A stretch of 37,234 nt of DNA from an uncultured marine group I thaumarchaeote. GTDB taxonomy: Archaea > Thermoproteota > Nitrososphaeria > Nitrososphaerales > Nitrosopumilaceae. Of this stretch, positions 2,642 to 35,545 are shown piece by piece; the stretch's first letter is position 1; each line of letters starts with the position of its first letter. The notes under the pieces were generated by a model. That model ran no database searches and was not told where the DNA came from. It saw only the letters and a program-made list of their open reading frames with translations. Location: contig CACIXQ010000009.1 in NCBI GenBank assembly GCA_902590655.1, positions 1 to 37,234 on the forward strand. Reading direction: 5' to 3'. The position numbers and the translations under genes were made by a program.

Positions 2642-3751
2642 ATGGGAATACCTGAAAAGATCAAAGCAATTCAAGATGAAATAGGACGGACACAACTCAA
2701 TAAAGCTACAGAACACCATATTGGTCTACTAAAAGCAAAAATTGCAAAGCTGAAAAGAGAGCAGGAAGCAGTTCAAACTAAAAAAAGTTCTAAAAAATCA
2801 GATGGGTTTGATGTTAGAAGAAGTGGTGATGCTACAGTTGTTTTTATTGGTCTTCCCAGTGTTGGAAAATCAACTCTACTTAATGCATTAACTGGTTCAA
2901 AGTCATCTGTTGGTGCATTCCAATTTACGACAGTGACGGTGGTGCCTGGAATTTTGGATTATCGTGGTGCAAAAATTCAGATGCTTGATCTACCTGGTAT
3001 CATTAAAGGAGCATCAAGTGGAAAGGGTCTTGGAAAAAGAATTTTATCAGTTGCTAGAAGTGCTGATATTGTACTATTAGTTCTTGATGTGTTCCAACCA
3101 TATCATGAAAATGTATTGATAAATGAATTATCAAATATTGGAATACGACTCAATCAGAATCCACCAAATATCGTAATAGAAAAGTCAACAACTGGTGGGA
3201 TTGCTGTTGCACAGCAAGTTAAATTAAAGAAAATGTCAGAAAAGCTTCTTAAGGACATATTGAACGTTTATGGGTATACTAGTGCACGAGTAGTAATTCG
3301 TGAAGATATTGATTCTGAACAATTAGTCGATTTTCTTACTGGAAATAAAACATATGCAAAATCAATCACTATTCTAAACAAAATAGATTTGGTTGATAAA
3401 AAATTTCTCAATAAGGTTTCAAAAAAACTTAAGACTGAATTCATTCCGGTTTCTGCTGATGCTGAACAAAATATTGCAGAACTGAGAGATAGAATTTATG
3501 ATGAATTAGAGTTCATCCGAATCTATATGCGACCAAAGGGTGGAAAAACAGATTACAAAGAGCCATTAATTATAAGAAAAGATAATACTGTTTTAGATGT
3601 ATGTAACAAATTACATAGGAAGCTTAGAAAGGATTTCAGATATGGGCTTGTTTGGGGTAAAAGTGTAAAATTCGGTGGTCAACGAGTTGGATTAAATCAT
3701 GTCTTAATTGACGAGGATGTTTTAACAATTATAAAAACTAAGGGAGCATGA
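2642..3751 (+). CDS. DRG/Rbg-family GTP-binding protein with TGS domain
   Basis: A translation-associated OBG-family GTPase of the developmentally regulated GTP-binding (DRG) type, shared by archaea and eukaryotes. The N-terminal helical, Lys-rich segment of about 60 residues is typical. G1 is GLPSVGKSTL, G3 is DLPG, and G4 is NKID in the second half. The C-terminal TGS domain covers roughly the last 80 residues. The 369-residue length matches the family, and the ATG has a TATA-like box about 25 bases upstream. Family knowledge suggests ribosome association; nothing in the window gives a more specific partner. Confidence 0.95.
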   Translation: MGIPEKIKAIQDEIGRTQLNKATEHHIGLLKAKIAKLKREQEAVQTKKSSKKSDGFDVRRSGDATVVFIGLPSVGKSTLLNALTGSKSSVGAFQFTTVTVVPGILDYRGAKIQMLDLPGIIKGASSGKGLGKRILSVARSADIVLLVLDVFQPYHENVLINELSNIGIRLNQNPPNIVIEKSTTGGIAVAQQVKLKKMSEKLLKDILNVYGYTSARVVIREDIDSEQLVDFLTGNKTYAKSITILNKIDLVDKKFLNKVSKKLKTEFIPVSADAEQNIAELRDRIYDELEFIRIYMRPKGGKTDYKEPLIIRKDNTVLDVCNKLHRKLRKDFRYGLVWGKSVKFGGQRVGLNHVLIDEDVLTIIKTKGA

Positions 3752-3754
3752 AAT

Positions 3755-3764
3755 AGTTTTTTCT
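3755..3764 (+). terminator. Oligo-T stretch, possible terminator
   Basis: A run of six T followed by CTTT comes directly after the DRG GTPase stop, in the short gap before the convergent collagen-like gene. Archaeal RNA polymerase commonly terminates at T-rich tracts. There is no hairpin. Confidence 0.3.
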
Positions 3765-3775
3765 TTATAGAAAAA

Positions 3776-4882
3776 TTAGTATAGATAACTAGTAAGTTTG
3801 ATTTGCTCTTCAGTCGAAATAATATTTTTTGATGCAAGTAACTCTAACAACTCTTTGAATATTCTTTTGTTCTCTTCAGACATTCCGCCTTGACCACCTT
3901 TTTCTCCAGGAGGACCAGGTGGACCCCTTGGACCTCGTTCTCCTATTTCTCCTTTATCACCGATAAGACCTTTTTCTCCCTGTGGACCTGGTGGACCAGA
4001 ATGACCACGTTCACCTTGAGGACCTTGAATTCCCTGTGGGCCTTGAAGACCAGACTCTCCAGGTTTTCCTGTAGGACCACGTTCACCTACTGGACCCATC
4101 GGACCTTTCGTTCCTTTCTCTCCTTGTGGACCGGGAATTCCAGTTAGACCCTTGCCACCAGGTGGGCCCTGTGGTCCTTGTGTTCCTTTGTCACCTACTG
4201 GACCAGTTGTACCAGTAAGACCTTTGTCACCAATTTTACCTTGAACACCTTTGTCACCTTTATCACCCGGAGGACCTGTTGTTCCTCTTGGACCTTTGTC
4301 ACCGGGAGGTCCAGTAATTCCTTTATCACCTTTATCACCAGAAGGACCAGTCTTACCTTTTTCACCTTGAGGCCCAGGAATGCCCTTGTCTCCCTTGTCT
4401 CCTTTATCGCCAGTTGGTCCTCTTCCACCTTTTTCACCCTTTCCACCAGGATATCCTGATGGTCCTCTCGGACCCTTACCACCTGGAGGACCAGGTCTGC
4501 CAGGTTTTGTTGTAATTTTTTTTACATTTGAAGTGTCAACACGTTTGAATTTTTCTTGTGATGTAGTTACAGGTTTACTAGTTGGAGAAATATTAAATTG
4601 AAATGACGTATGAACAGGAGAAAATTGATCCTGGATTACAATCCAAACATATTCCAAGTCAAAAACATTATCAGGTATTGGATTAGAACCACTACCTAAA
4701 ACTTGAGAAAATTGGTCTCCAGAAACTCTAAGATGAAAATTATCTTTCCATAAGGAATTGAACGAATTGTTATCTATACTAGTGTCAGATGGCCTGTTTT
4801 CAGATATAGAAATTATTACCTCATAGACGCCAGAGGAAGTACCGAATGGTGATTTACCAGAAATTTCTATTCCCTTAGGCAT
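3776..4882 (-). CDS. Collagen-like Gly-X-Y repeat protein
   Basis: Encodes 368 residues from the ATG at 4882; an in-frame TTG at 4897 would add five. The first ~127 residues are a non-repetitive, probably beta-rich domain that I do not recognise. Next come 69 consecutive Gly-X-Y triplets without interruption (3881-4501). Last is a ~34-residue C-terminal segment that looks like an amphipathic helix. The triplets include 11 GDK, 5 GEK and 7 GPP. K-G-D/E contacts of this kind are known to stabilise bacterial collagens without hydroxyproline. No signal peptide or transmembrane segment is visible, so its location is unknown. A very good TATA box sits 28 bases upstream, so it should be transcribed as a single leaderless gene. 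Function unknown; a structural trimer is the natural inference. Confidence 0.88.
3881..4501 (-). repeat. Collagen-like repeat tract (69 Gly-X-Y triplets)
   Basis: Every third codon is Gly for 207 codons. Nine-base units vary in X and Y, so the tract is not a simple recent amplification. It produces long open frames on both strands that are only shadows. Confidence 0.95.
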
Positions 4883-4904
4883 TGTTATTCGTCGCAAGTT
4901 GAGG

Positions 4905-12765: not shown

Positions 12766-13497
12766 TTATCGAAATAGATCATCATGATCTGATCGTAACA
12801 TTTCTTGAATTTTTGCAGTAGATGAATTAAAGTTGTAATTTCTAATTACTGCGATTGGACATTTTTGGATTTTTCCCATAACTAATTCTGATGCTGAACA
12901 AATTTCATCAGCAATCGCTATAGCTGTCACCTGCATAATTTTACCAAATGTGTCTGGTTTACCATTATAATCCAAAATAGGCTCAAGACCAGCAATTCCA
13001 ATTGCAATATCTGTTTGACCCAACCGAAAAGGTCTTCCAAATGTATCAGAAATTATTACAGCTACGTTTTTTCCAGTTTTCTGTTTAATTTTCTCTTTCA
13101 GTAAGTTAGCTGACCTGTCAGGGTCATTAGGTAGTAATGTTGCATAACCATCTTCCACATTGCTTTCATCAATTCCAGCATTAGCACAAACAAATCCATG
13201 TTTTGTTTCAACTATAATCACACCATTTTCCATTCTTACTATCCTTTTACTTTCTGAAAGTATCAGTTCCACTAGTCTCGGATCTTTGCCATATGAGCTA
13301 GCTATACCATCAGCAAGAAGTGACGGACTAACTGAAGATAGACTAAGAATACGATCTTCATTTTTAGAAATTATTTTTTGAGAAAAAACAAGTATATCAT
13401 CATCATTCATTTCAAATGATTCTAGAATCAAGTCGACAAGGTCATCATTAGACTCAATTTCTTTTTGAAATTTCACTGGAATAACTTGTAATGTCAT
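12766..13497 (-). CDS. cofE: Coenzyme F420-0:L-glutamate ligase
   Basis: Adds glutamate residues to F420-0 using GTP. The 243 residues match single-domain archaeal CofE. Recognisable segments are the N-terminal DDDILVFSQKIISKNE, the central GFVCANAGIDESNV, and the ISDTFGRPFRLGQTDIAIG block with the metal-binding acidic and Thr residues. It starts 8 bases after the serB-like gene on the same strand. It implies F420 use in this organism. No other F420 gene is visible in the window. Confidence 0.96.
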   Translation of the reverse strand: MTLQVIPVKFQKEIESNDDLVDLILESFEMNDDDILVFSQKIISKNEDRILSLSSVSPSLLADGIASSYGKDPRLVELILSESKRIVRMENGVIIVETKHGFVCANAGIDESNVEDGYATLLPNDPDRSANLLKEKIKQKTGKNVAVIISDTFGRPFRLGQTDIAIGIAGLEPILDYNGKPDTFGKIMQVTAIAIADEICSASELVMGKIQKCPIAVIRNYNFNSSTAKIQEMLRSDHDDLFR

Positions 13498-13505
13498 GTT
13501 GCATA

Positions 13506-14156
13506 TTACGCTGATGCATGCAATTCCAGTTTTAGATTATAATGTGAATTAATCAAGCCGACAATTTTTGATAAATCCTTTTCGTCAAGTGTGACGGTAG
13601 CTAAATCCTTGACTAGATCTTGAGCACGGAATGCTATTCCAAAACCTGTAATGCCAAAAAGTTTGACATCATTAGCACCATCCACAATCACCGTGATATC
13701 TTCTTTTTTCTCATTCCATTCATTGATTTTAATTATAGCTGATTTTGCTTTATCGGCATCAACATTTACAATAACATCATCAAGATTACCATCTTTAAAG
13801 ACAAGTTCGTTACTATATACAAAATCAAGACCTAATTCTTTTTTTAGTCTGTCAGTGATAATCGTAAAACCACCTGAAACAGCCATTATTTTCCAACCCG
13901 CACTTTTCAATGCATTACATGCTTCTTTCGCACCAGTCATTATTGGCATAGAGTTTGCAACATCAATACATGTATCATAATCTATTCCACGAAGAAGATG
14001 AACACGTTCTTTTAGACCTTGAACCCAATCAATTTTTCCTTCTATACCCTTTTTTGTAATTTCCCAGATTTTATTTTCCTTATTCACCTTTTCAGCTAAT
14101 AAAGGAAGATATTCAGCATCGTAAAGAACTCCCTCAACATCAAAAATTGCTAACAA
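13506..14156 (-). CDS. HAD phosphatase, phosphoserine phosphatase (SerB)-like
   Basis: 216 residues with SerB organisation: an N-terminal motif I, a small helical cap with R/K residues, motif II AVSGGFT at about 93-99, and a C-terminal Lys plus acidic motif. Two departures stand out. Motif I reads DVEGV rather than DxDxT/V, so the acid/base Asp is Glu. Motif IV reads VDGANDV rather than GDGAND. Phosphoserine phosphatase is the best guess by homology, but the altered motif I leaves activity uncertain. It heads the run with cofE, PHP and tusA-like genes. Confidence 0.82.
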   Translation of the reverse strand: MLAIFDVEGVLYDAEYLPLLAEKVNKENKIWEITKKGIEGKIDWVQGLKERVHLLRGIDYDTCIDVANSMPIMTGAKEACNALKSAGWKIMAVSGGFTIITDRLKKELGLDFVYSNELVFKDGNLDDVIVNVDADKAKSAIIKINEWNEKKEDITVIVDGANDVKLFGITGFGIAFRAQDLVKDLATVTLDEKDLSKIVGLINSHYNLKLELHASA

Positions 14157-14258: not shown

Positions 14259-14546
14259 ATGTCAGATGAACTAAAGTTCAAGTATGAAGTAGAAATAAAA
14301 AGTAGAGAAAAGAGACAGATGCTTTCAAAAGAAGTAAAGGCAGAGTTGAAAGAATCTGGAATGATGGATGAGAAGGGAAAACTGAAGATTAAAGGAGTTA
14401 GTCCAAAAATGCTAAAAAGAATGAAGCAGGAATTTGTCGATTGCCCAGTTCTTAAAAATGAGGTACAGTTTATACCATGTTTTGTCTGCCCAAATTTTCA
14501 GAGTAGAGTGACAGGAAAGGTTTTGTGTAAGGGGGATGACCTCTAA
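14259..14546 (+). CDS. Small protein with four-Cys cluster, unknown function
   Basis: 95 residues that I do not recognise. The first two thirds are very Lys/Glu-rich and helical (KSREKRQMLSKEVKAELKE). The C-terminus carries C62, C74-x2-C77 and C90, which could bind zinc or an iron-sulfur cluster. AT-rich, TATA-like DNA (TAATATTA, CATATAAAAT) precedes the ATG. It is followed directly by the Lys-rich/SWIB gene, with one base between the stop and the preferred downstream ATG. The two are therefore probably one operon. Confidence 0.75.
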   Translation: MSDELKFKYEVEIKSREKRQMLSKEVKAELKESGMMDEKGKLKIKGVSPKMLKRMKQEFVDCPVLKNEVQFIPCFVCPNFQSRVTGKVLCKGDDL

Positions 14547-14547
14547 T

Positions 14548-14838
14548 ATGGCTAAAAAGCGAGCAGTAAAACGTAAAACAAAATCCAAGCGCAAAACAAA
14601 GTCCAAACGTAAAACAACGGCTAAACGTAAAACAAAGTCCAAACGTAAAACAACGGCTAAACGTAAAACAAAGTCCAAACGTAAAACAAAGAAGAAAGCC
14701 TTTGGTGGATATTCCATAAGTTTCAAGAATCGTGATGAAACACTTGAACAGATTTTTGGTAAGGGTAATGTTACCCCTAGCGAAATGACAAAAAAGCTTT
14801 GGAAATTCATCAAGAGCAAGAGACTTGCTAACAAGTAA
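14548..14838 (+). CDS. Lysine-rich repeat protein with C-terminal half SWIB-like domain
   Basis: 96 residues. Residues ~1-50 are a Lys/Arg/Thr/Ser tail of KRKTKS and KRKTTA hexapeptides, like a histone H1 tail. Residues ~60-96 (LEQIFGKGNVTPSEM, KKLWKFIKSKRL) resemble the first half of a SWIB domain. SWIB domains occur in eukaryotic chromatin remodellers and next to histone-like tails in Chlamydia. A Shine-Dalgarno-like GGGGATGA about 8 bases upstream favours the ATG at 14548 over the ATG at 14536, which overlaps the upstream gene. Probably a DNA-binding chromatin protein; this is inference from composition and the short domain match. Confidence 0.78.
   Translation: MAKKRAVKRKTKSKRKTKSKRKTTAKRKTKSKRKTTAKRKTKSKRKTKKKAFGGYSISFKNRDETLEQIFGKGNVTPSEMTKKLWKFIKSKRLANK
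14581..14688 (+). repeat. Six tandem 18-base units within the Lys-rich gene
   Basis: Units alternate between AAGTCCAAACGTAAAACA and ACGGCTAAACGTAAAACA, with a diverged first unit. They are in frame and encode KSKRKT and TAKRKT. The near-identity of units suggests recent expansion. Confidence 0.9.
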
Positions 14839-14890: not shown

Positions 14891-16333
14891 TTGAGTAAAG
14901 AAGTTGGTATCACTGTTTCAAAAAGTGAAGATTTTAGTGAGTGGTATACACAAGTAGTTATCAAGTCTGAGCTTGCTGATTATGCGCCAGTTAAGGGATT
15001 AATTGTACTAAGACCTGACGGCTACTCTATCTGGGAATCAATCAAAGAATCTCTTGATAAAAAACTGAAAGAAACTGGTCATAGGAATGGGTTTCTGCCG
15101 ATACTAATACCTGAATCACTACTTGGTAAAGAAAAGAAACACTTTGAGGGATTTAATCCTGAAGTTTTTTGGGTTACACATTCAGGTGATTCAGAAATTG
15201 GGGATAAACTTGCTTTACGCCCAACTTCTGAAACTCTTGCGTATTCACTTTTTTCTAAATGGATAAGAAGTTGGAGAGACCTACCACTAAAGATTAATTT
15301 TTGGAATTCGGCATTAAGAGCGGAGATTAAGGGGACAAAACCATTTCTAAGAACATCAGAATTTTTGTGGCAAGAGGGACATACAGTTCATGCTACGAAG
15401 GATGAAGCTGAAAAAGAAGTTGCAGACATATTGGAATTGTATAAAAAAACTATAGAAGAAGAATTGGCAGTTCCAGTAATCACTGGAAAAAAAAGTGAGA
15501 AGGATAAATTTGTTGGAGCTATTTACACTGATACACTTGAATCATTAATGCCTGATGGTAAAGCACTACAAATGGGAACATCTCATTTTCTAGGTGAGAA
15601 TTTTTCCAAACCATTTGATGTAAAATACCTTGATGATAATAATACTGAAACCTTTGCATGGCAAACATCATGGGGAGTATCATGGAGATTGATAGGTGGT
15701 ATGATAATGACACATGGTGACGACAAGGGACTTGTCTTACCACCAAGAATAGCGCCAATTCAAGTTGTTATAATTCCAATCTATTATTCTGATGATGAAA
15801 AGGGAAATGTGATACAAAAAGCAAACCAGATCAGGGATGATTTGTCTAAAATTAACTTACGCGTTCATCTGGATGACAGGGAGCAACTTACTCCAGGTTT
15901 CAAGTTCAATGATTGGGAGATGAAAGGTATACCAATACGGATCGAAATAGGTCCTAAAGATATCGCTAAAAATCAATTAGTATTGGTAAAAAGACATAAT
16001 CAAACAAAAACTAGTATTGATATTAATTCATTCACTGAGAAAATTTCCTCAGAACTAAAAAATATTCAGAAAGAAATGTTTGATGCTGCTAAAAAAATAC
16101 TTGATGAGAGAGTTGTTAGGGTTTCTGAATATCAACAATTCAAAAAAGAATTAGAGAATGGAAAAATGATTGACTGTTCCTGGTGTGGTAATCAAACATG
16201 TGAAGATAAAATCAAAGAGGAGACCAGCGCAGACTTGCGCGTTATCCCATTTAACCGCGAACAAAAATCAGAAACATGTATTTATTGTAAAAATTCAGGC
16301 ACTACAAATGCACTATTTGCTAAAGGCTACTAA
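14891..16333 (+). CDS. proS: Prolyl-tRNA synthetase, archaeal/eukaryal type
   Basis: Charges tRNA-Pro. 480 residues of the short archaeal class II form with no bacterial editing insertion. Class II features include RPTSETLAYSLFSKWI, the FLRTSEFLWQEGHT motif 2 block and the motif 3 region WGVSWRLIGGMIMTHGD. The C-terminal zinc-binding domain has CSWCGNQTC and CIYC. The start is TTG, supported by a clear Shine-Dalgarno GGTGGAGG at 14878-14885, one of the few strong ones in this window. Confidence 0.97.
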   Translation: MSKEVGITVSKSEDFSEWYTQVVIKSELADYAPVKGLIVLRPDGYSIWESIKESLDKKLKETGHRNGFLPILIPESLLGKEKKHFEGFNPEVFWVTHSGDSEIGDKLALRPTSETLAYSLFSKWIRSWRDLPLKINFWNSALRAEIKGTKPFLRTSEFLWQEGHTVHATKDEAEKEVADILELYKKTIEEELAVPVITGKKSEKDKFVGAIYTDTLESLMPDGKALQMGTSHFLGENFSKPFDVKYLDDNNTETFAWQTSWGVSWRLIGGMIMTHGDDKGLVLPPRIAPIQVVIIPIYYSDDEKGNVIQKANQIRDDLSKINLRVHLDDREQLTPGFKFNDWEMKGIPIRIEIGPKDIAKNQLVLVKRHNQTKTSIDINSFTEKISSELKNIQKEMFDAAKKILDERVVRVSEYQQFKKELENGKMIDCSWCGNQTCEDKIKEETSADLRVIPFNREQKSETCIYCKNSGTTNALFAKGY

Positions 16334-16798: not shown

Positions 16799-18103
16799 AT
16801 GGCAACAGTTTCCAGGCAAAAATCAGCTCTTCTTGGACAGTTCAATGAAACAAGGGCTAGAACACTAAGTCTAGTACAAACACTAGAAAAAGACGATTTT
16901 GTCGTGCAGACAGCTCCTTTTATGAGCCCGCCAAAATGGCATTTGGGACATGTTAGTTGGCTACTAGAAGTTGTTATGAGTAAAACCATAAAGGATTATG
17001 AATTTTATTCACAGGAATTTAGTGAGTATCTTAATTCGTATTATCATCAATTTGGGGAACCACATGACAAAGATAAGAGGGGGTTAGCAACTAGGCCTAC
17101 AGTTGATCAAGTTTTTGAGTATTTCCATATGATAACTAACAAAGTGGATAGTATTTTACAGAATGAAAAGTTGGATGAAAAAACGAAACAACTATTCTTT
17201 ATGGCAATAAACCATGAGTGCCAGCATCAAGAACTGTTAATCTATGATTTACAGCATTTATTGGCAGACAGATACAGACCAGTTATAAAAAACTCAATGC
17301 ATAATCCACCAGAACAAGAATTTCAAGCAATCAAAATCAATGGTGGGTTGTATAAAATGGGCTATTCAAGTGATGAATTTTGTTACGATATTGAACTACC
17401 TGAACATAATGTCTATCTTAATGATTACAAAATTGATGCATGTCCAATAACAAACAAACAATACATAAAATTTATTGATGATGGTGGTTATGACTACTTC
17501 AAATATTGGCTTTCTGATGGTTGGGATAAAGTACAGAGTGAAAAATGGAAAGCACCAATGTATTGGGAAAAGATTGATGGGGAATGGATGACCTGTGACT
17601 TTCTTGGGAAACGAAAAATAAATCCAAGTGAGCCAGTTTGCCACGTTAGCTATTATGAGGCTGATGCATATTGTAAATGGGCTGGAAAAAGATTGCCAAC
17701 AGAGGCTGAATGGGAAAAGGCTGCATGTTGGGATGACAAGAATCAAAGGAAAACAATTTTTCCGTGGGGTGATAATCCACCAGACAATACACATGCAAAT
17801 TTGCTTGAATCATACATTTGGAATTGTGATGAAATAGGATCATATCCAAATGGAAAAAGCCATCATGGATGTCATCAGATGATTGGTGATGTATGGGAGT
17901 GGACATCGTCTGAATTTTCTGGATACCCAGGATTTAAGACTGGATTTTCTGAGTATAACGACAAATGGTTTGCAAATCAAAAAGTGCTAAGGGGTGGTTC
18001 ATTCGCTACACCATCGATTTCCATACGTGGAAGCTATAGGAACTTTTTCAGGTTGGATGAAAGATGGTTATTTTCAGGATTCAGATGTGCTGAATCTGTT
18101 TAG
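16799..18103 (+). CDS. egtB: EgtB-type sulfoxide synthase (ergothioneine biosynthesis)
   Basis: Non-heme iron enzyme that joins a thiol donor (Cys or gamma-Glu-Cys) to trimethylhistidine with oxygen. The N-terminal DinB_2-like domain has the expected three-His iron site: H51 in KWHLGHVSW, and H139 and H143 in NHECQHQE. Residues ~180-434 are a formylglycine-generating-enzyme/sulfatase-modifying fold (GGLYKMG, CPITNKQY, RLPTEAEWEKA, GDVWEWTSS, VLRGGSF, GFRCAE). The 434-residue length is typical. It is tail to tail with egtD, overlapping by four bases, which strongly supports the pathway assignment over generic sulfatase-modifier annotations. Donor preference cannot be read by eye. Confidence 0.92.
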   Translation: MATVSRQKSALLGQFNETRARTLSLVQTLEKDDFVVQTAPFMSPPKWHLGHVSWLLEVVMSKTIKDYEFYSQEFSEYLNSYYHQFGEPHDKDKRGLATRPTVDQVFEYFHMITNKVDSILQNEKLDEKTKQLFFMAINHECQHQELLIYDLQHLLADRYRPVIKNSMHNPPEQEFQAIKINGGLYKMGYSSDEFCYDIELPEHNVYLNDYKIDACPITNKQYIKFIDDGGYDYFKYWLSDGWDKVQSEKWKAPMYWEKIDGEWMTCDFLGKRKINPSEPVCHVSYYEADAYCKWAGKRLPTEAEWEKAACWDDKNQRKTIFPWGDNPPDNTHANLLESYIWNCDEIGSYPNGKSHHGCHQMIGDVWEWTSSEFSGYPGFKTGFSEYNDKWFANQKVLRGGSFATPSISIRGSYRNFFRLDERWLFSGFRCAESV

Positions 18104-19128
18104 CCATTTTTTGAAAGTAATGCTAAACAAAAATACTGTTTATCATCAAACCATAGTTCATTAATTCGAAAACCAGTATTGGAAAACATTTCTTCAATTT
18201 TTGGAATCGTGTATTTATACGAGTTTTCAGTATGAATTAACTCGCCTTTTTTCATTTCTAACATAATTCCTGCCTTGGTAATATTTACAATCTGATTTTC
18301 TAATGAGCGTATGTATATCTCAATTCGGTTTTTTGAATCATTGAATGTAGCATAATGTGCAAATTTGTCTACATTGAAATCGCTATCCAGTTCTGAGTTA
18401 ATGCGGGATAAGACATTCAAATTGAATTGCGCAGTGATATTCTGTGAATCATTATATGCTTGCTCGAGTATATTCGTGTCTTTTACAAGATCCAAACCAA
18501 TCAAGAATAGATCACCATCTTTCATTGACGAATTTATTTTATGTAAAAATCTTAATCCAGGTTCATAATCAAAGTTACCAAAACTAGAACCCAAGAACAC
18601 TATTAGATTTTTCTTGTCATCATAATTTTTTACAAATTCCAATCCACTTTCATAGTTATCAATTATTCCAGTCATATGCAAATTTTCATAATCATCAAGT
18701 AATGTTGTTGTACTTTCCTTTAGTATCTTGGAAATGTCAATTGGAAAATATTCTATGCGCTTCTGTAATTTTTCAAAGATGGAAATGAGTATTCTAGTTT
18801 TATACGAAGAACCACTTCCCAACTCTACAAGTCTAAATTCCTCATCCATGTATGCTGATAATTTATCATCCAGTTTTCTCAATATGCTAATTTCAGTTCT
18901 TGTTAGATAATATTCTGGTAATTTGCATATCTTTTCAAAAAGTTCTGAGCCACTTTTATCGTAAAAAAATTTTGGGTGTATTGATTTTTGTTTTTGATTT
19001 AAACTAGATGATAGTTCTTCAACAAATGTTTTCTCTGTTTTATTTTTAGATGGTTCATAATAACAAAGTCTCTCATCTACGACAAATTTTGTATATTCAC
19101 GCTCCTTTTGAATTGATTTTAAGCTCAT
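18100..19128 (-). CDS. egtD: L-histidine N-alpha-methyltransferase (EgtD)
   Basis: SAM-dependent enzyme that trimethylates histidine to hercynine, the substrate of EgtB. The family block FFYDKSGSELFEKI and LPEYYLTRTEISIL is present, as is the SAM site ELGSGSSYKT, with FLGSSFGNF further on. I chose the ATG at 19128 (342 residues). A GTG at 19152 would add a hydrophobic octapeptide not expected in this soluble enzyme. Convergent with egtB. With both genes present, ergothioneine production from histidine is a reasonable inference. Confidence 0.93.
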   Translation of the reverse strand: MSLKSIQKEREYTKFVVDERLCYYEPSKNKTEKTFVEELSSSLNQKQKSIHPKFFYDKSGSELFEKICKLPEYYLTRTEISILRKLDDKLSAYMDEEFRLVELGSGSSYKTRILISIFEKLQKRIEYFPIDISKILKESTTTLLDDYENLHMTGIIDNYESGLEFVKNYDDKKNLIVFLGSSFGNFDYEPGLRFLHKINSSMKDGDLFLIGLDLVKDTNILEQAYNDSQNITAQFNLNVLSRINSELDSDFNVDKFAHYATFNDSKNRIEIYIRSLENQIVNITKAGIMLEMKKGELIHTENSYKYTIPKIEEMFSNTGFRINELWFDDKQYFCLALLSKNG

Positions 19129-19194
19129 AAAATGCACCAAAAATAGTGCCACATAAAGCCTTTTTGACTGCTGTTAATTATTTTGTGATTTCTT

Positions 19195-25929: not shown

Positions 25930-26361
25930 TTAATTAGATGAAGGATTTTTTATATCAATTTCAATTTTTGACACATTACGTTTTTGCCCATCCTTGGATA
26001 CTAATGAATCAGAAGATATACGAACATCACCAATTTCATACCCCACTTCGTTCATTCGTTTCATAATCATTTGTGATACATCTATTGCCTGAGTAATACG
26101 TTTACCACGTGCCACTAATGTGATAACAGGTAAAGATCCTAACTGTGTTAATGTCGCAGTAACATATGACATGATAGGCTTTGTTCCAATGAAAATCATG
26201 TTATGTGGTTCATGCTGTTCCCTCTTTGTTTCTGGCTCTTGTTCTGGCTGTGGCTCTTGTTCTGGCTGTGGCTCTTGTTCTGGCTGTGGCTCAATATCAT
26301 GAGTTTTTTGAAACTCGGAAAGTATTTCTTCCGCATCACTTCTGTCATTCTCAGAACTCAT
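25930..26361 (-). CDS. Alba-family nucleic acid-binding protein with acidic N-terminal repeats
   Basis: 143 residues. The Alba fold begins at about residue 55: MIFIGTKPIMSYV (Lys 61 matches the nucleic-acid-contacting loop Lys), then VARGKRITQAIDV. Typical Alba proteins are ~90 residues. Here ~54 extra N-terminal residues are strongly acidic and contain three PQPEQE repeats. The full-length ATG at 26361 has an AT-rich TATA-like element (ACATATTAG) about 27 bases upstream, so the tail appears genuine. The tail could modulate binding or recruit partners; this is inference. Convergent with deoxyhypusine synthase. Confidence 0.88.
   Translation of the reverse strand: MSSENDRSDAEEILSEFQKTHDIEPQPEQEPQPEQEPQPEQEPETKREQHEPHNMIFIGTKPIMSYVTATLTQLGSLPVITLVARGKRITQAIDVSQMIMKRMNEVGYEIGDVRISSDSLVSKDGQKRNVSKIEIDIKNPSSN
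26233..26293 (-). repeat. Three perfect 18-base tandem units in the Alba gene
   Basis: The plus strand reads TGGCTCTTGTTCTGGCTG three times (26233-26286), followed by the first seven bases of a fourth. In frame, they encode the acidic Pro/Gln/Glu repeats. Identity suggests recent slippage. Confidence 0.9.
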
Positions 26362-35117: not shown

Positions 35118-35179
35118 GATTACTGTGGTTTCTTCCTCTAAGTATAATTAACGGTGTGGAAGTTAAAATCCATAAGAAT

Positions 35180-35545
35180 ATGTCATATAGAGGAGACCGA
35201 GAAATGCACGATGCCACTTGTGGAGATTGTGGCAAACAATGCCAAGTTCCATTTGAGCCACGACAGGATAAGCCAGTTTACTGTGGTGACTGCTTCCAGA
35301 AACATAAACCACAAAACCGAGGTGGCGGAAGATTTGGTGGCAGAGGAGGCTCAGGTGGCAGAGGTGGCGGAAGATTTGGTGGCAGAGGTGGCTCTGGCGG
35401 AAGAGGTGGATTTAACCGAAGACCACGAGAAATGCACAAGGCAACTTGTGGGGATTGTGGTAAGGAATGTGAAGTTCCATTCGAGCCAAAAGGAGACAAG
35501 CCAGTCTATTGTAGCGAATGTTTTCAAAGTCATAAAAGAAATTAA
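35180..35545 (+). CDS. Zinc-ribbon protein with central RGG/Gly-rich linker
   Basis: 121 residues from the ATG at 35180; a GTG at 35156 would add eight. Two near-identical ~30-residue zinc-ribbon units (ATCGDCGKQC ... VYCGDCFQKH and ATCGDCGKEC ... VYCSECFQSH), each CxxC-CxxC, flank about 40 residues of RGG, GGRFGG and SGGRGG repeats. RGG boxes bind RNA in eukaryotic proteins. This suggests a small RNA-binding or RNP protein. A TATA-like AGTATAATT lies about 35 bases upstream. The other reading frame over the same DNA is a repeat-driven shadow. Confidence 0.85.
   Translation: MSYRGDREMHDATCGDCGKQCQVPFEPRQDKPVYCGDCFQKHKPQNRGGGRFGGRGGSGGRGGGRFGGRGGSGGRGGFNRRPREMHKATCGDCGKECEVPFEPKGDKPVYCSECFQSHKRN
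35320..35412 (+). repeat. Gly/Arg-coding direct repeats
   Basis: Two long direct copies of GGTGGCGGAAGATTTGGTGG with GGCAGAGG-type fillers encode the RGG linker. The duplicated flanking ribbons suggest the gene arose by internal duplication. Confidence 0.8.

Follow-up and report, generated by a model that had tools for sequence, protein, structure and literature searches.

A basic-tailed protein of a marine thaumarchaeote with a C-terminus that appears to be a single SWIB/MDM2 repeat

What use might a marine thaumarchaeote have for a protein that joins a tail resembling that of histone H1 to a SWIB domain stopping halfway, and does the four-cysteine protein encoded directly upstream act together with it? 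These questions were raised by a sequence-only reading of the stretch of DNA analysed here (37,234 nucleotides, hereafter the window, from a 911-kb draft genome of 40 contigs that is 74% complete). The upstream gene, P0001 (14259..14546, plus strand), encodes a conserved 95-aa protein whose four cysteines lie at residues 62, 74, 77 and 90 (codons starting at 14442, 14478, 14487 and 14526) and form a C-x11-C-x2-C-x12-C motif (14442..14528, plus strand), in line with the small four-Cys protein initially described. One base behind its stop codon begins P0002 (14548..14838, plus strand; ATG at 14548, stop at 14836-14838), which encodes 96 aa, so the tight linkage of the two genes indeed exists in the window genome; an alternative in-frame ATG of P0002 at 14536 would overlap P0001. 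The pair is flanked downstream by the prolyl-tRNA synthetase gene proS (14891..16333, plus strand; Pfam ProRS-C_1 and tRNA-synt_2b), the usual downstream neighbour of P0001 as judged by synteny. Divergent from P0001 are a HAD hydrolase gene (13506-14156, minus strand) and cofE for the F420 gamma-glutamyl ligase (12766-13497, minus strand), both assigned by Pfam. Further along the window, a DinB_2/FGE-sulfatase protein (16799-18103, plus strand) adjoins a histidine-specific methyltransferase (18100-19152, minus strand; both Pfam), a pair reminiscent of the ergothioneine-synthesis proteins EgtB and EgtD. The window also holds a 373-aa collagen-like protein (3776-4897, minus strand; Pfam Collagen, E 9e-31), which is unexpected in an archaeon, and, at 35156-35545 (plus strand), two treble-clef zinc-finger stretches (PF23477) with an RGG-rich linker between them.

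P0002 has a pI of 11.9, and its first 50 residues comprise 31 lysines or arginines and no aspartate or glutamate. Residues 8-49 (14569..14694, plus strand) consist of seven Lys/Arg/Thr hexapeptides of the forms KRKTKS, KRKTTA and KRKTKK, encoded by 18-nt units of which TRF reports 6.8 copies at 14569-14691. The remainder, residues 52-96 (14701..14835, plus strand), runs from an FGGY motif to a terminal LANK; we refer to it as the half-SWIB domain, an assignment drawn from Pfam SWIB, from alignment, from comparison with both halves of complete SWIB domains and from a structure model of modest confidence. The SWIB-profile search that had been suggested as a check returned a match of the Pfam model (PF02201, 74 positions) to residues 64-95 of the whole protein, covering profile positions 7-38 (E 1.6e-4, 21.8 bits), while the C-terminus alone scored 24.0 bits; both scores fall just under the curated cut-off of 25 bits. 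P0002 hence carries the repeats together with the first SWIB half only, as proposed, and does not extend to the two halves, some 74 positions, of a complete domain. Across the half-SWIB members scanned, the matches fell within positions 4-39 of the 74. The cut-off was passed, over the first half only, by three of seven relatives: two from f79, a distant archaeal family (L198 with 29.9 and L231 with 28.5 bits), and one viral unit (L167 with 25.5 bits). The other five of the six stand-alone viral units stayed below it (L205, L206, L207 and L165, and likewise L164 with 17.8 bits). Of 13 diverse members, all matched SWIB at E <= 1 (best 3.4e-7), and the top PDB sequence match of half-SWIB profile A2 was yeast UAF30, at the first half of its SWIB domain (E 3e-4). 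P0002 also aligned to the final part of NCBIfam PRK06319, a topoisomerase I/SWI fusion model (E 2.1e-6), though its 26 bits come nowhere near the 868 bits required there.

SWIB domains had been taken as otherwise known from eukaryotic chromatin remodellers and chlamydial proteins. They do occur there, but they are not confined to these groups, as they are found on plasmids and are also reported in Patescibacteria (PMC12455944). One viral contig (L236) encodes a full SWIB protein of 83 aa at 83-334, next to a 909-aa open reading frame that resembles a tape-measure protein by eye. A tblastn search with this viral-contig SWIB returned 40 plasmid records, 19 of them annotated as 'SWIB/MDM2 domain-containing protein'.

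Is the half domain a unit in its own right or what is left of a longer one? Full-length P0002 as query gave matches in 11 of 61 genomes, although that in G040 is weak and does not reach the end of the domain, and in 8 of 31 genomes within the window's genus; the C-terminal 46 aa as query matched 24 of 101. With the Pfam SWIB model and a limit of E <= 0.01, 47 of 200 genomes from the class gave a match, and all of these stayed under the curated cut-off. When a half-SWIB profile was run against 398 genomes of the phylum, it returned 49 matches at E <= 0.01, comprising 43 strong matches in the window's family, three in f79 (E ~1e-10) and three weak ones. In the class of f79, a profile that included two f79 sequences matched 21 of 151 genomes, namely 16 f79 genomes strongly (at 17 places) and five weakly. 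The open frames at these 17 places measure 55-61 codons in 12 cases and 83-138 in five, in which the start is not fixed. Weak matches (G122; G062, G274 and G287; G273, G287, G435, G460 and G600) lie mostly inside long open reading frames and were treated as chance; in G287 (L202), the match-like stretch is found early in a long frame, which by eye resembles a class II tRNA synthetase. In L198, the f79 half-SWIB gene (2213-2389) is followed some 750 nt on by an open reading frame (3139-4158) which by eye looks like a FEN1/XPG-like nuclease. Among the matches listed from the open-licence PMC literature, titles and the beginnings of abstracts made no mention of a half-SWIB from archaea or phages; SWIB does come up in work on algal giant viruses.

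The archaeal units end uniformly. Across 34 distinct half-SWIB domains, the window's included, mean column identity was 73% (the set was picked by motif, with FGGY required and the end within 60 residues). In three partly overlapping sets of fetched archaeal loci, to which no length limit was applied, the distance from the core tryptophan to the stop was 11 residues in 22/24, 19/20 and 30/30 cases, and 13 or 15 in the remainder. An early stop like that of P0002, 11-15 residues past this tryptophan, is shared by all fetched loci of these sets. Visual reading of 27 loci beyond the stop (two of them the same place) showed no second SWIB half, and reading L182, L176 and L075 revealed none in G143 and G149, whose matches ran past the stop. 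Nor did searches of these genomes turn up a second half as a gene of its own. All this bears on the idea that a full SWIB protein is decaying and that P0002 is what remains of it. Such truncation does occur: in a Variovorax plasmid (L247), the SWIB stops soon after the first half, close to an IS3 transposase gene, and is likely a real truncation, unlike the archaeal half. For P0002, the high identity and uniform end of the domain, the small stand-alone genes in distant f79 and on viral contigs, and the 27 loci free of a second-half remnant make decay hardly credible. Rather, the half-SWIB is a unit of about 45 residues and not a fragment. Its gene is dispensable, given its patchy occurrence in the genus and the absence of a profile match in G025, an assembly of a single contig and 99% completeness.

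How does this unit relate to the two halves of a complete SWIB domain? The SWIB/MDM2 fold consists of two structural repeats in SCOP. We compared a half-SWIB profile (45 strings from 43 sequences, two of which entered twice with different cuts) with halves taken from seven plasmid copies, the viral-contig protein L236, UAF30 and 1v31, i.e. ten first and nine second halves; ten plasmid SWIBs had been fetched, of which three were missed by the motif and left unused, and one used copy was cut short, without a second half. With hhalign, the half-SWIB profile scored 55.6 against the first halves (best of 300 column shuffles, 16.9) and 29.2 against the second halves (maximum of 300 shuffles, 14.5), while first against second halves gave 14.9, a value reached by one of 300 shuffles. 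A single register was common to all three pairings. In this register, BLOSUM sums were 50.3 for half/first, 22.0 for half/second and 15.8 for first/second, with identities of 28%, 24% and 17%, respectively, whereas all other offsets from -4 to +4 gave negative sums of about -20 to -43. The half-SWIB carries marks of the first half (W34, F/Y36 and K38) along with marks of the second (F19, K21 and M29). At 26 of 32 columns, the consensus of the two halves differs; there, half/second beats permutation (35/20,000) and scores 1.7 against -3.6 for first/second, yet first/second beats permutation as well (22/20,000), so the advantage of half/second at these columns is modest. The f79 units on their own (two sequences) scored 16.5 against the second halves, compared with 31.1 for the 41 other strings under a simple motif pick.

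Since the half-SWIB profile matches both SWIB halves while these barely match each other, the full SWIB looks, as far as sequence comparison can tell, like a tandem, internal duplication of a half-SWIB-type unit. The pattern would fit an ancestral single unit and a later half turned symmetric alike. Relative to the SWIB/MDM2 family (PF02201, with yeast UAF30, SMARCD/BAF60 and bacterial members), P0002 has the first-half sequence in common and resembles the second half in the same register; it differs in having one unit of about 45 residues and in scoring below the Pfam cut-off. In sequence, the P0002 C-terminus represents a single SWIB/MDM2 repeat. Might the likeness instead have arisen by convergence, through a basic helix of the EM-K-K-W-F-I-K type? 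PDB searches did bring up similar short matches to isocitrate dehydrogenase. Yet the in-register agreement extends along most of the unit, none of 300 shuffles reached the hhalign score, and both the SWIB matches of all 13 members and the three relatives above the Pfam cut-off speak against it, which renders convergence very improbable.

A structure prediction had also been proposed for the C-terminus. An AF2 model of the half-SWIB, built from 14 sequences without templates, shows a short helix, two strands and two helices, but confidence was modest (pLDDT 68, pTM 0.44) and no fold match was significant. Five of the eight listed Foldseek matches in the PDB were MDM2 or MDMX, all eight at E values of 2.8-9.5, and VIA-align gave no Z of 2 or more for the model against 23 chains. 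The model leans toward a SWIB/MDM2 fold but does not prove it.

Half-SWIBs also occur on viral contigs, and their surroundings bear on function. Seven IMG/VR contigs encode them, of which one search returned four and another six, three of these new: six as stand-alone genes of 48-55 aa (L164, L165, L167, L205, L206 and L207, that of L206 counted from an inner ATG) and one, L166, as a unit inside a 135-aa protein. In L206, the half-SWIB gene is flanked on one side by a gene of 442 aa, matched in PHROGs only by an entry of unknown function, and on the other by a UvsX-like gene; a DNA polymerase gene is found upstream, and exonuclease and SbcD-like genes follow downstream. This viral half-SWIB is clearly placed in a replication/recombination region. 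By eye, the arrangement in L205 is that of L206, and in L207 SbcD- and SbcC-like genes are near the half-SWIB. For the L206 DNA polymerase, 724 phage matches were recorded, all weak; identity is 25-29% in the top ten, among which are haloarchaeal tailed viruses. A tblastn search with three queries found no half-SWIB in annotated phages, two queries found none in the plasmid collection, and scans of viral contigs with single sequences returned only the query's own contig or nothing.

Of the 23 archaeal half-SWIB loci read, at least nine place the gene between a RibD-like gene of 218-224 aa and a hemerythrin-like gene of 185 aa, both judged by eye. In four of the 23, a gene that by eye looks TFE-like begins no further than about 1.3 kb away. 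These TFE-like neighbours, together with the replication and recombination genes around the viral units of L206 and L207, would suit a monomeric docking domain that, without dimerising, links the basic tail to a protein partner in replication, recombination or transcription; MDM2-type domains, moreover, bind peptides. On the other hand, some 45 residues with an exposed half-interface would be small for a stable monomer, and AF2 confidence for the monomer was low; we consider monomeric docking possible, at lesser odds than not.

With regard to the upstream gene, the proposal that P0001 and P0002 form a chromatin module found no support. P0001 is a genuine gene: of 61 genomes, its own included, 54 match it, against 11 of 61 for P0002. 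All four cysteines are invariant across 43 aligned sequences, and the motif is kept in all ten deeper P0001 loci fetched. In 26 loci the order cofE, HAD hydrolase, P0001, proS recurs. We inspected 74 P0001 loci, i.e. the best 80 of 192 less three with short downstream DNA and three missed by the motif filter: proS lies within 1.2 kb in 67 of them and a half-SWIB gene directly downstream in six. Beside the deeper P0001 loci, proS was seen by eye in only two of ten; in L250 and L252 the P0001 homologues are near cofE-like genes, and in L250 also near a CofD-like gene, again by eye. Conversely, P0001 is present in 7 of 34 half-SWIB stretches, with no homologue in the fetched DNA of the other 27; these stretches are mostly ~3 kb long, and some end at contig ends. 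A co-expressed and co-functional pair could draw on the single-base spacing in the window and on adjacency in close relatives, but the sparse co-occurrence in both directions, the much wider spread of P0001 and its usual neighbours proS and cofE leave it quite improbable. Among the loci seen, the adjacency is confined to the window's clade, and the pair is a local arrangement. P0001 is an independently conserved four-Cys protein that probably binds metal, and it is probably not functionally tied to P0002; there is a hint of a link between its family and F420 synthesis. Its AF2 model (pLDDT 78.5) found no useful fold match, nothing convincing emerged for it from Pfam, NCBIfam, PHROGs, PDB sequence, Foldseek or VIA-align comparisons, and phages contained no match.

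What, then, might P0002 do? Our preferred reading, to which we assign a probability of roughly 45%, is that of a small, basic, DNA-associated protein whose half-SWIBs pair into a SWIB-like fold while the tails contact DNA, independently of P0001. The Lys/Arg repeat tail would contact nucleic acid without sequence specificity. Because SWIB looks like two tandem units and no separate second half was found, two half-SWIB chains would most likely pair, homodimerising into a SWIB-like fold. Such a dimer with two tails might bridge or compact DNA or, alternatively, offer a symmetric docking groove to a partner. Taken by itself, P0002 may plausibly act on DNA or chromatin. Its genome has one histone-fold match and two Alba matches, so P0002 would be an accessory protein, which agrees with its patchy distribution. 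The Alba protein encoded within the window (25930-26361, minus strand) carries an N-terminal acidic repeat of the PQPEQE type, opposite in charge to the P0002 tail. The tails of half-SWIB relatives are basic, with varying length and repeat pattern, and a long basic tail is absent from the f79 units read and from six of the seven viral units, so tail-based DNA binding would not be general to half-SWIBs.

The nearest functional parallel is plastid SWIB-4, which combines an H1 motif with SWIB and is described as binding DNA, compacting nucleoids and complementing an E. coli hns mutant (Melonek et al. 2012, as covered in the review PMC4154389). Both proteins are small and join a very basic, H1-like region to a SWIB-type domain, and DNA packaging would by analogy be the shared activity; SWIB-4 is described there with a SWIB domain, whereas P0002 has the half only and is known here from its sequence. 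Chlamydial TopA with its C-terminal SWIB (PMC12445093) likewise resembles P0002 in lysine repeats plus SWIB, but P0002 has no topoisomerase and only half a SWIB. With archaeal nucleoid-associated proteins (NAPs) such as histones and Alba, P0002 shares small size, basic charge and putative DNA binding, while it belongs to a different sequence family. The criteria for candidate NAPs given in PMC7613761 include a length under 290 aa, a single-gene operon and high protein abundance. At 96 aa P0002 is within the size limit; judged by gene spacing, one base behind P0001, it is not a single-gene operon. Lys/Arg-rich tails are themselves unspecific, and P0002 might bind RNA, ribosomes or polyphosphate instead of the chromosome, with a precedent in AlgP, an H1-like protein linked to polyphosphate granules (PMC9239181). 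The ties of SWIB to DNA in plastid SWIB-4 and chlamydial TopA argue against this, and we think it unlikely.

A wider scenario would derive the SWIB/MDM2 domains of chromatin remodellers and MDM2 from a unit of about 45 residues that became duplicated and fused. As a free unit it would be homodimeric in archaea and in viruses and, with an H1-like tail, would have become a DNA-bridging chromatin protein in thaumarchaea; taken as a whole, we rate this chain of steps as speculative and rather doubtful. A stable half of a chromatin-associated domain, existing on its own, opens the origin of the SWIB/MDM2 fold to test, by way of whether two halves dimerise into the whole. Histones are reported at very low abundance in Nitrosopumilus maritimus, below 0.06% of the proteome (PMC7613761). 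P0002 may be put forward as a candidate DNA-packaging protein for ammonia-oxidising archaea.
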